Source: Ensifer sp. LC163
GTDB taxonomy: Bacteria > Pseudomonadota > Alphaproteobacteria > Rhizobiales > Rhizobiaceae
Assembly: GCF_001695855.1 (NCBI RefSeq)
Contig: NZ_MBSS01000017.1
Span: 1 to 64,000 of the forward strand
DNA: 64,000 nucleotides
Direction: 5' to 3'
A program made the position numbers and the translations under genes. This document shows, one piece after another, positions 35,524 through 38,805 of this stretch. Below the pieces are notes generated by a model that was given only the letters and a program-made list of their open reading frames with translations, was not told the origin of the DNA and searched no databases. Numbering within the stretch: position 1 is the stretch's first letter; every line of letters begins with the position of its first letter.

Positions 35524-35701
35524 CGTCATCGCCAACAGATGTACCTGCGAGAGCGCCGCGCTGCAGGACATGAGCGACATTCCGGACGTCTTCTCCTCGA
35601 TCGATCTGCTCTGGTCGGAAGGCGCTGCCTACGACATCGGCTTCACCGACGCGCTTTCATTGCGGAAGGCGGCGCTGCGGACCGGCGGCTTTGCCGTCGT
35701 C
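35524..35701 (+). pseudogene. Class I SAM methyltransferase, left fragment
   Basis: Open in frame from just after the ZIP stop, this piece encodes IPDVFSSIDLLWSEGAAYDI, GFTDALSLRKAALRTGGFAV, ending at the left end of the Tn3-type element. The SxDLLWSEGAAYxIGF...LRxGGFxxVSEL layout is that of a methyltransferase; the SAM-binding N-terminal part is missing. Removing the element and one TCGTC copy joins it in frame with 38461 onward (FAVV-SELAW), which gives the expected family sequence. Confidence 0.7.
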
Positions 35702-35739
35702 GGGGTCGTTTGCGGGAGGGGGCGAAATACTACCTTAAG
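35702..35739 (+). repeat. Left 38-bp terminal inverted repeat of the Tn3-type element
   Basis: Starts GGGGTCGTTTGCGGGAGGGG and ends ATACTACCTTAAG. It is complementary to 38418-38455 with about three differences. The outer bases directly abut the TCGTC duplication. Confidence 0.85.
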
Positions 35740-36240
35740 CGATCGGGCGGTTTACACTAGCGACCATGACAACTTTCACACGATAGGGATTTTTGGCGGG
35801 TTTCGCCACACAACAGCCGTTGGATAGTCTCCCTGTAGACGGCAAAGTGCGACCCCGAGCGGAAGTTCGTTCGTCGAGGGCGAATTCACGCCGATGACCC
35901 GAAGCGGTCGTTGCCGCTGCACAGCGGCAACGACGCGAAAGGCGTGGAGAAGGGTCGTTCGTTGCGGGCAATAATTGAACCGTAGTCGCGCTGCCTGCCG
36001 CCGCCCGCCCGCGCGATGTCATCTACCTATGCCTGGGCACATCCGTGCGGGATCAGCGACACTCCGCCATACATTTGTGCTGACAGTCCGCGCGTGCGAA
36101 GGTGCTTGCTTCCGCCGGCCTTCCAGTGCCGTCGACGCAACGGCCAGAGCTGGATCGGGAAATTTGGACAGGGTTATAAGTGGAATTTCTGCCTGAACAC
36201 GGCATAGAAGCCGGGAACAGGAGTCTTCTAAGTGGCGCGA
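35740..36240. other. Left internal non-coding arm of the Tn3-type element
   Basis: About 500 bases between the left inverted repeat and the cyclase gene stop. Short open frames exist on both strands but none has a convincing start and ribosome site. A GC-rich inverted stretch GTTGCCGCTGCACAGCGGCAAC lies near 35907-35930 and could fold into a hairpin. A resolution (res) site would be expected in a Tn3 element, but none was recognised. Confidence 0.4.
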
Positions 36241-38016
36241 TTATTCTTCGATCAGACGCTTCTCTCCCGGGGGAAGCCCCTGCTCGATCAACCTGTCGAG
36301 GTAGTCGCAGTAAGGACTGCCTTCATAGAATGGGTGGGCCGCCTCTCGGACGTATTCCGCATTCAGGTTTGGAAACTTCTTCAAAGCATCAGAGATCCAG
36401 ATCCTCACTTCATCGGTATTGCCCGCCCTGAGGGCGAGCAACGCTGCCCCAATGAATGGATAATAGGTTGTGCGTTCGAAGGACGCGCCTTCCCGTAGAT
36501 GCATCCGGGCCGTTGAGAGGTCATCGGGCTCGCCTCTCAGCATCAAGCCAATACCGAGTAGTGTCTTGAACGCAAACATAGACGGATCGTGAGGACTGAG
36601 ATCGATGGCATTTTGTGCGGCTCTAATCGTCGTATCGGCGTCCCTGAGCCGCACGGCTGCCATTCCATGTGCGAAGTGAAGAAACGCGTAGTTGGGATTT
36701 AATGCAAGGCCCTGTTCAGCGACAGGCATGGCCTCAGCCGCTCGCCCGTCCACCGTAAGAAGGAGCGACATCATCGCGTACGCGATATCGCTCCGCCTGT
36801 CGATTTCTAAGGCCTTCGTGGCGAACGATAGTCCTTCCTTGACAGCGACAGGCACGTCTGCGGCACGCCCCCAAAGGACGAGTGCGTATCGGTGACGAGC
36901 TAAATAGGCGTAGGGAAGTGCGAAATTCGGATCGTGTTCGAGCGCTTGTCGAAGCAACTTCTCGGCAGTGGCTTGAGAACCTGCTTCGAAGGAAAGCAAT
37001 TCAGCAAAGCCGCGGTGACAAAGTTCCCAAGCAGTAAGGTTGTCCGTCGATTTGGCGAGGGCGAGGCCCCGTTCGTGCGCTCCCAGTTCTGGTTCGATGC
37101 CCGCGATAATCCGGCGCGTTATCTCGTCCTGCACATCAAAAAAATCGGCGATCGGACGATCCCACCGCTCGGCCCAGATGTGTGCTCCGGACAGCGCGTC
37201 GATTAGCTGCACAGTGATCCTCAACCGATCACCGGACCGCCGAACCGATCCTTCCACGACATAGCGCACACCAAGTTCCCGGGCGATCTTGCGTACGTCC
37301 TTGGCTGTTCCCTTGTAGGCGAAAGTCGAGTTGCGAGCGATCACGAACAACCATCGAAAGCGACCTAGTTCCGTGATGACGTCTTCGACCAGTCCGTCGA
37401 CAAAGAAGTCCTGATCGGGCGTGGCAGAAAAATTCTGGAATGGGAGAACCGCGATCGAAGCACGTTCCTGTCCAGAGAGCCGAACCGGGCTGGGCGCCGT
37501 GCCGTCCACCTCGACCTGCCACACGTCAATTGGTTCGGGGATGTTCTTAACGGACTGTGGCCCGAGCCACGTCATCCCAGCCTCTATCTTGCCTTGCACA
37601 TGATCGTAGATTGCACGAGATATGCAGATGCCTCCGGCGGGTGCGATGGTTTCCAAACGCGCAGTGATGTTGACGCAGTCGCCGAGGATGTCGTCCCCAT
37701 CGATCACCACGTCTCCCATATGAATACCGATCCGAAAACGCAGACGTCGGTCTTCCCCTTGGGGAGACTCGCGCGAGATCAAGTTGCGCTGCATTAGAAG
37801 AGCCGCTCTTACCGCCAACACTGGCGATGGGAAATCGACTAGGAGCCCGTCACCCATGGTTTTGACGATGCGGCCACCGCCTTCCATAATCGCCGGGTCA
37901 ATCACGTAGGTTCGCGCATCGCGCAGCCGCGAAATGGTGCCTTCCTCGTCCGCCGCCATGAGACGAGAATAGCCGACCAAATCGGCAGCCATTATTGTGG
38001 TAAGGCGACGTTCCAC
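36241..38016 (-). CDS. Class III adenylate/guanylate cyclase with TolB-like and TPR domains
   Basis: A 591-residue protein. Residues 1-165 form a class III cyclase: TTIMAADLVGYSRLMAADEE and KTMGDGLLVDFPSP carry the two metal aspartates, and DCVNITARLETIAPAGGICI the end of the site. Residues 185-300 form a FlgO/TolB-like domain (ASIAVLPFQNFSATPDQDFF, VDGLVEDVITELGRFRWLFV), and the remainder TPR repeats (LEIDRRSDIAYAMMSLLLTV; LALNPNYAFLHFAHGMAAVR). Such cyclases are abundant in Rhizobiales. The start is GTG at 38016 behind GGAGGGG. It is the cargo gene of the Tn3-type element, transcribed leftward, and appears intact. Confidence 0.9.
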   Translation of the reverse strand: MERRLTTIMAADLVGYSRLMAADEEGTISRLRDARTYVIDPAIMEGGGRIVKTMGDGLLVDFPSPVLAVRAALLMQRNLISRESPQGEDRRLRFRIGIHMGDVVIDGDDILGDCVNITARLETIAPAGGICISRAIYDHVQGKIEAGMTWLGPQSVKNIPEPIDVWQVEVDGTAPSPVRLSGQERASIAVLPFQNFSATPDQDFFVDGLVEDVITELGRFRWLFVIARNSTFAYKGTAKDVRKIARELGVRYVVEGSVRRSGDRLRITVQLIDALSGAHIWAERWDRPIADFFDVQDEITRRIIAGIEPELGAHERGLALAKSTDNLTAWELCHRGFAELLSFEAGSQATAEKLLRQALEHDPNFALPYAYLARHRYALVLWGRAADVPVAVKEGLSFATKALEIDRRSDIAYAMMSLLLTVDGRAAEAMPVAEQGLALNPNYAFLHFAHGMAAVRLRDADTTIRAAQNAIDLSPHDPSMFAFKTLLGIGLMLRGEPDDLSTARMHLREGASFERTTYYPFIGAALLALRAGNTDEVRIWISDALKKFPNLNAEYVREAAHPFYEGSPYCDYLDRLIEQGLPPGEKRLIEE

Positions 38017-38214
38017 GCTTGCCCCTCCGCCAAGAAAATACAGTACCGCCTGATAAGCAAATGCGAAAGCGCTCTGGAACCGGGCGAATCAGGATAGGAA
38101 CGAAAAATCCAGAGCGAATGCGCTGATTCGCACCCGATGGGATCCGCTTCTCTCTTCGGCTTGCCGATGCCGAGCGGGAATGGTGGCAGCTTAGAAAGAG
38201 CAGCGACTGTGGCG

Positions 38215-38427
38215 CGTCCACGTTCATTTAGGAATGTCTGCATTGCCGGTCTCGACCTCCTCACCGCCATCATCATCTATTGGAACACATGGAAGCTCGG
38301 CGAAATCGTCGCCGAGCAAATCGCAAGCGGCGAACAGATCGACCTCGGGCTGCTTCCTCACGTCTCACCGCTCGGATGGGAGCATATAACGCTCACCGGG
38401 GAATATCGGTGGCCGCCGTTAAGGTAG
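38215..38427 (+). pseudogene. C-terminal remnant of a Tn3-family transposase (TnpA)
   Basis: Open in frame up to the right inverted repeat, the translation RSFRNVCIAGLDLLTAIIIY, WNTWKLGEIVAEQ and HVSPLGWEHITLTGEYRWP matches the conserved end of Tn3-family DDE transposases (LLxxxIxxWNT...HxSPLGWEHIxLTGxYxW). Only about 70 residues remain; the catalytic core is gone, its place taken by the cyclase gene. Its position, reading into the terminal repeat, is that of tnpA in Tn3 elements, which identifies the family of the element independently of the repeats. Confidence 0.82.
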
Positions 38428-38455
38428 TATATCGCCCCCTTCCGCAAACGACCCC
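38418..38455 (-). repeat. Right 38-bp terminal inverted repeat of the Tn3-type element
   Basis: On the minus strand it starts GGGGTCGTTTGCGGAAGGGG and ends TATACTACCTTAAC. It overlaps the last codons of the transposase remnant and abuts the second TCGTC copy. Confidence 0.85.
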
Positions 38456-38622
38456 TCGTCAGCGAGCTCGCTTGGAGAAGCGAGGCTGCGCCAGCCATCG
38501 CGCGTGACTTCTTCCGCACCGCATATCCCGACATCAAGCCGACCGCCGACAACATCAAGCTCGCTGACGCGATCGGCTACCGCGTCCTGGGCACGCACAC
38601 CCTGCCGCCAGTTTGCCTGTGA
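38456..38622 (+). pseudogene. Class I SAM methyltransferase, right fragment
   Basis: After the TCGTC duplication, the frame encodes SELAWRSEAAPAIARDFFRT, AYPDIKPTADNIKLADAIGY, RVLGTHTLPPVCL and a stop. It continues the fragment at 35524-35701 in frame when the element is removed. The stop falls earlier than in the family, so the 3' end is also damaged or was already shortened. A RIME1-like repeat follows at 38700. Confidence 0.7.
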
Positions 38623-38699
38623 GGCGCCGGATCGCTGGGGCCACTGTTCGCTTTTTGATCTTGCGCTCGTATACCCATGGCCCTTTAATGTCAGAAGCC

Positions 38700-38805
38700 T
38701 ACTGCATAATTCCTTAAATCGGATCCGGTTTAAGGTTCAAATTATGCAGCAAGTTTAAAGTGTTACAGCGTCGTTAGCGCGTCATATTTGACGCGCGGCG
38801 CTGTA
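38700..38805 (+). repeat. RIME1-like intergenic repeat, copy 5
   Basis: TACTGCATAATTCC opens palindrome I (core TAAATCGGATCCGGTTTA, one arm change), then AAAGTGTTACAGCG and palindrome II GCGCGTCATATTTGACGCGC to GCTGTA. It lies between the interrupted methyltransferase remnant and pcm, 35 bases before the pcm start, and so inside the pcm upstream region. Confidence 0.85.

Follow-up and report, generated by a model that had tools for sequence, protein, structure and literature searches.

Transposase-less derivatives of Tn3-family transposons that carry other DNA have been described in Pseudomonas as TIMEs, TIME-COMP and TIME-RES (PMC4133298, PMC13367494). Here we compare with them an element of 2.75 kb in Ensifer sp. 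LC163, located at positions 35702–38455 of a 64,000-nucleotide stretch of DNA (contig NZ_MBSS01000017.1, positions 1 to 64,000; in the following "the window") and bordered by Tn3-type 38-bp inverted repeats. It resembles the TIMEs of PMC4133298 in having 38-bp Tn3-type repeats, 5-bp duplications, no transposase and DNA between the ends; action of TnpA in trans is inferred for both. TIME-COMP is bounded by two TIME copies, whereas the ends of the window element differ beyond the repeats (a 155-bp left-end unit versus the 3’ end of tnpA). Its cargo, a cyclase, also sets it apart from the TIME-type elements. Transposase-less Tn3 derivatives as such are already known; the cyclase cargo is unusual. 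In the open-licence literature we found nothing on an adenylate cyclase as a Tn3 passenger, which does not establish its absence from print. We consider it probable that the element is a non-autonomous mosaic derived from a rhizobial Tn3-family transposon and that it was moved as a composite by a transposase from elsewhere.

Both inverted repeats begin with GGGG and match at 35 of 38 positions, leaving 3 mismatches. A repeat search returned an arm pair of 37 nt with 95% complementarity. An earlier reading of this stretch from its letters alone (the sequence-only reading) had described the repeats as running from GGGG to TAAG. Tn3-type ends they are, but TAAG applies to the left one only: the left repeat ends in TTAAG and the right one in TTAAC. 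The repeat is presumably similar to that of Tn5393-type elements. We searched the genome assembly of the strain (6,521,514 bp, 68 contigs, 96.9% complete) for the 38-bp repeat with up to 3 mismatches and obtained two matches only, the element’s own ends. The reversed repeat pattern gave 0 matches in the same genome, and shuffled sequence gave none even at up to 12 mismatches. Directly outside both repeats lies a perfect 5-bp target duplication, TCGTC (35697–35701 and 38456–38460), in agreement with the sequence-only reading.

When the flanks are joined with a single TCGTC, one open frame runs over the joint, reading ...GGFAVVSELAWRSEAAP... The joined flanks (358 nt) were compared with 72,556 plasmid records. 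All seven matches were from Sinorhizobium, and all seven align uninterrupted over the joint, in one piece covering 81–82% of the query at 76–79% identity. The homologue of the target in Sinorhizobium fredii is an open reading frame (ORF) of 193 aa; 94 residues of the joined 112-aa frame match it (73%), and the joined frame stops soon after the homologous stretch. Given this limited homology and the early stop, the target was therefore already a gene fragment. The methyltransferase gene that had been taken as restored is thus a restored gene fragment only, while the open joined frame and the uninterrupted homologues stand. In Pfam the S. fredii ORF falls weakly into methyltransferase families and the window fragment into no family.

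The right end retains the last part of a transposase gene. Its 61 residues match Pfam DDE_Tnp_Tn3 (PF01526) with an E-value of 7.8e-13 at profile positions 335–389 of 389, which confirms the C-terminal transposase remnant reported at the right repeat. The complete tnpA of an autonomous Tn3 element is not present, the element holding the last 61 codons only, and the genome of the strain gave no PF01526 match besides this remnant. The 206-aa recombinase (tnpR) of an Ensifer adhaerens relative described below had no match in the element or the window (E 0.01); a res site was not searched for. Together, the tnpA 3’ end and the right repeat (38242–38455) are 90–94% identical to four other loci and equal the last 214 bp of tnpA-bearing transposons. 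At 38241/38242 the joint is abrupt: the native flanks of the cyclase and the native tnpA part ways there, and by eye they have no bases in common. It is reached from either side and crossed by none of the six plasmid records, and viral contigs contained no exact match to it. Judging from these alignments, no homology was involved in joining the cargo to the Tn3 right end. The features of the element and its target site are collected in Table 1.

Table 1. Parts of the element and of its target site, in window positions
Feature	Position	Strand	Basis or remark
Left part of interrupted methyltransferase-like gene fragment	35524–35701	+	ends in TCGTC copy (35697–35701)
Left 38-bp terminal inverted repeat	35702–35739	+	pattern and repeat search
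Left-end unit, ~155 bp	35702–35855	+	common to other rhizobial loci
40 bp separating transposon left end from cargo	35856–35895		only first ~17 bp matched, in one genome (G079)
Cyclase-region downstream flank	35896–36143		common to S. shofinae and R. bangladeshense
IS3-family (ISKpn11-like) left-end remnant	36144–36223	+	
Intact class III adenylate cyclase gene, 591 aa	36241–38016	-	
Region upstream of cyclase	38017–38241		native flank extends beyond 38241 in S. fredii, S. shofinae and Ensifer sp. LC11
tnpA 3’ remnant (last 61 codons and stop)	38242–38427	+	Pfam DDE_Tnp_Tn3; ends inside right repeat
Right 38-bp terminal inverted repeat	38418–38455	-	pattern and repeat search
Right part of interrupted fragment	38456–38622	+	begins with TCGTC copy (38456–38460); stop 38620–38622

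Just 3’ of the host fragment we noticed a palindromic sequence of ~50 bp (38699–38755), copies of which are found in further genomes of the genus (L025, L027; labels of this kind are our own handles for loci, genomes and contigs).

The sequence-only reading had proposed as a test that the same ends be sought around different cargo, together with a full-length relative with intact tnpA, and both searches were successful. The full-length relative is a transposon of 28,109 bp on Ensifer adhaerens pCTYH.Ch1_3 (69982–98090), with ACTGA on both sides. Its intact 967-aa TnpA matches the NCBIfam Tn3 transposase model with 1015.7 bits and, in the PDB, the TnpA of Tn4430 (E 1.9e-177); the transposon also holds a recombinase as well as sugar-catabolism and transport genes. 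It shares with the window element the repeats and the tnpA 3’ end at the right repeat, the DNA being 92% identical over 214 bp. It differs in its complete tnpA and recombinase, its size of 28 kb, its sugar-catabolism genes and the sequence beside the left repeat. A second unit with the same ends, 5,030 bp long and with ATATA on both sides, was found on Rhizobium sp. CB3090 pCB3090_3; besides genes for a recombinase and a metallophosphoesterase it has a tnpA that is broken into two frames. A third genome (G009) encodes a TnpA of 969 aa. There, two Tn3 ends with the matching flank GTGAT lie on different contigs (L040 on C1, L043 on C5), as if split by a rearrangement between replicons.

Also close to the window element is an element of 14,008 bp on Sinorhizobium chiapasense pSchITTGS70a (NZ_CP133149.1, 105480–119487), a plasmid typed as conjugative. 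It is flanked by ATTAT on both sides and carries a SAM-cyclase-AAA protein, which is another cyclase type, two Hsp20 genes and GroES/GroEL. It has a tnpR remnant and no tnpA match. Its right repeat is conserved mainly on the outside, with 2 mismatches in the outer 22 positions and 11 in all 38. Its joined flanks match other plasmids with 38–94 bases past the joint (in the 12 listed of 83 records); in Sinorhizobium sp. CCBAU 05631, 466 of 608 query bases align in one piece at 94.0%. The two elements thus have in common the left-end unit, the lack of a TnpA match, a cyclase cargo and a 5-bp duplication, whereas the size of 14 kb, the SAM-cyclase-AAA, Hsp20 and GroES/GroEL genes, the tnpR remnant and the weaker right repeat set the S. 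chiapasense element apart.

We then considered the left-end unit. With one duplicate record and all matches shorter than 61 query bases dropped, 26 loci yielded 14 distinct copies outside the window. The unit starts at the first base of the repeat in 11 of these 14, and 12 of 14 end at unit position 152–157, with unrelated sequence beyond. A weak match in G298 (71%) reaches position 162 and counts against a strict inner limit. Ten copies were tested for a partner right end; two had one with a duplication identical at 5 of 5 positions, namely the window and S. chiapasense. Around the eight other copies (18.9–39.7 kb each) no good repeat with a matching duplication was detected, and both positive controls were recovered. 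The unit recurs at unrelated sites (L009, L010, L101–L104, L109, L119–L123). That it is a free miniature element was considered and set aside, as by eye no target duplications surround the copies.

The cargo segment (35896–38241), ~2.35 kb of foreign rhizobial DNA, gives a 97.5% match to the cyclase locus of Sinorhizobium shofinae. Sinorhizobium sp. CCBAU 05631 shares its first part, 35896–36136, but the 10 kb compared there gave no cyclase match. This part, as it stands in NZ_CP023064.1 (L152) with no cyclase match in the DNA compared, has the same start base as in the cyclase loci and may be a separate dispersed repeat. The adjoining stretch 36144–36223 was assigned to the IS3 family on two grounds: it is overlapped by 39 of 40 listed rows (of 913 records), and two annotated neighbours of such matches are IS3 transposases. 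According to the sequence-only reading, the transposase core had been replaced by the cyclase gene. A 591-aa cyclase does lie inside, but this was not a simple gene replacement: the inserted 2.3 kb derive from another genomic region and include flanks of their own as well as the remnant of an IS3 end. A nearby hairpin had drawn attention to a possible IS91-like end at 35896; this was dropped, since the preceding bases disagree between loci.

On genome contigs, 44 loci encode relatives of the cyclase by the patterns used. Thirteen of them are 91–99% identical at the protein level; the best match after these covers a segment at 62%. DNA matches with an E-value of 1e-200 or better were present in 7 of 394 genomes of the family (own included; one partial), and in the genus sample 7 of 16 genomes, again including its own, hold the gene at at least 92%. 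The DNA of the window gene is 98.3–98.6% identical to the S. fredii and S. shofinae copies and 95.1–96.2% to five Rhizobium copies. For comparison, identity in recA regions is 80.7–81.5% for two Sinorhizobium-group genomes and 77.6–82.4%, in pieces, for one Rhizobium. In the congeners E. adhaerens ST2 and AFS045263 the cyclase is 92–93% identical and the recA region ~91% over its main piece; judged from these two, an excess of cyclase over recA identity is not general within the genus. Of 18 other copies, 14 retain the whole reading frame free of internal stops, whereas 4 have truncations or frameshifts. The median ratio of nonsynonymous to synonymous substitutions (dN/dS) was 0.14 over 104 pairs (range 0.08–0.24), after exclusion of frameshifted and truncated sequences and of pairs whose dS did not exceed 0.02. 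By this measure the cyclase gene is under purifying selection. In the gene tree the window copy belongs to no strongly supported small clade; the nearest row is S. shofinae.

The surroundings of the gene vary. If copies whose homology extends over 500 bp outside the gene, at one side or the other, are counted as one context, the 22 cyclase loci (among them two records counted twice and a truncated gene) make up 14 flanking contexts, the window included. We scanned 50 of 53 listed flanking ORFs and found insertion sequence (IS) transposases near the S. fredii copies and L049, L060 and L066, and an integrase near the S. shofinae copy. The other scanned neighbours are metabolic, transport or regulatory genes or belong to no family. 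Allowing 12 mismatches, the Tn3 repeat was absent from all 21 other cyclase loci (311,912 bases scanned, two records counted twice, flanks of a few hundred bases to 15 kb, mostly ~6 or 15 kb on each side), and within the DNA scanned only the window copy has Tn3 ends. The idea that the unit spreads the cyclase among rhizobial replicons finds no support in this, nor was a second copy of the composite seen. Taking these contexts together, the cyclase gene does spread among rhizobia, with the Tn3 element as one carrier and not the general vehicle. We rejected a single mobile unit shared by all cyclase copies, as breakpoints vary and no strong repeat pair was reported around the others. Three Ensifer copies (L057, L064, L066) share a right boundary ~160 bp upstream of the start codon and diverge beyond it.

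The 591-aa protein matches Pfam cyclase catalytic domain and tetratricopeptide repeat (TPR) families. The structure model (mean pLDDT 83.9, pTM 0.64) shows, besides the cyclase domain, an alpha/beta domain and helical repeats that we interpret as TPRs; from its secondary structure, the limits are ~1–172 for the catalytic domain, ~186–288 for the alpha/beta domain and ~289–578 for the TPR array. D12, K52, D56, N116 and R120 are present in the window protein and invariant in 19 aligned proteins, several of which are near-identical copies. We take them to be the metal-binding Asp pair, the substrate-specifying Lys and the transition-state Asn and Arg. The best solved structural match is 3mr7, a class III cyclase from Silicibacter pomeroyi, with 46% identity in the catalytic domain and a TM-score of 0.94 by target length. 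The catalytic domains are alike, while the window protein adds the alpha/beta domain and the TPR array. Of the earlier labels cyclase, TolB and TPR, the first and the last hold, but TolB was a label only: in NCBIfam the middle domain matches a HilA-type model far below that model’s cut-off. If expressed, the cyclase should make cyclic AMP (cAMP), as predicted from residues and fold, with the alpha/beta and TPR part as input or scaffold.

With regard to the origin of the element, non-homologous joining would have brought the cyclase segment next to a left-end unit facing outward on one side and a truncated right end on the other. The Tn3 transposase of another element would then have moved the composite into the decayed methyltransferase-like gene. 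The assembly contains no other Tn3 transposase, and movement would therefore need a helper; until one enters, such as the 28-kb Ensifer transposon, the unit would be immobile. Several observations weigh against this account. The composite was seen in this one copy only, which leaves the movement of the whole unit without the support of another, and 8 of the 10 left-end copies tested have no detectable right end. A short match in G079 (L108; unit positions 120–171), one of those dropped above, crosses the inner limit of the left-end unit, so that this limit is not absolute. Finally, had the interior been exchanged after insertion, the ends and the duplication would look no different.

The last point leads to the strongest competitor, in which a complete Tn3 transposon made the TCGTC duplication and its interior was swapped later, so that Tn3 never moved the cyclase. 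This course of events would need no helper transposase, and it agrees with the single composite copy and the non-homologous right joint. However, it demands that one transposon underwent two internal exchanges without damage to either end, and the 14-kb relative without a TnpA match has a duplication of its own and records aligning over its joined flanks. We regard it as unlikely, though it deserves to be kept in mind. Very improbable, in our view, is a cyclase unit that is a mobile element in its own right and landed inside a Tn3 remnant. The 14 contexts among 22 loci at 92–99% DNA identity to the window gene would suit it, as would the downstream-flank homology beginning at 35896 in four other loci. 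Against this, the right breakpoints differ (38092, 38128, ~38150, 38180, 38241 and others further on), a check of 11 other copies reported no strong pair of inverted repeats around them, and in S. fredii the native flank extends beyond 38241. That the repeats arose by chance, or that the locus is undisturbed and vertically inherited, is refuted here by the 35/38 repeat match, unparalleled in shuffled sequence at up to 12 mismatches, by the uninterrupted target homologues and by a cyclase identity between genera far above that of recA regions, even though two congeners, with a cyclase identity (92–93%) no higher than that of their recA regions (~91%), would fit vertical descent within the genus.

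We thus favour a mosaic moved as a composite in trans. A wider proposal would be a rhizobial family of transposase-less Tn3 derivatives that share one 155-bp left-end unit, repeatedly acquire cyclases and are moved in trans. We consider it doubtful. The two members with both ends carry two different cyclase types, and therefore, if it were true, second-messenger enzymes would be traded in the manner of resistance genes.

Rhizobia carry many cyclases. In Sinorhizobium meliloti, cAMP signalling controls the number of infection events on the legume host (PMC4222275, PMC5498481). The element, together with its sequenced autonomous relative, offers a simple system for testing the formation and movement of transposase-less Tn3 mosaics. 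A near-identical cyclase that occurs across genera, is under purifying selection and has one transposon-borne copy shows that part of the signalling repertoire of rhizobia is horizontally exchanged.

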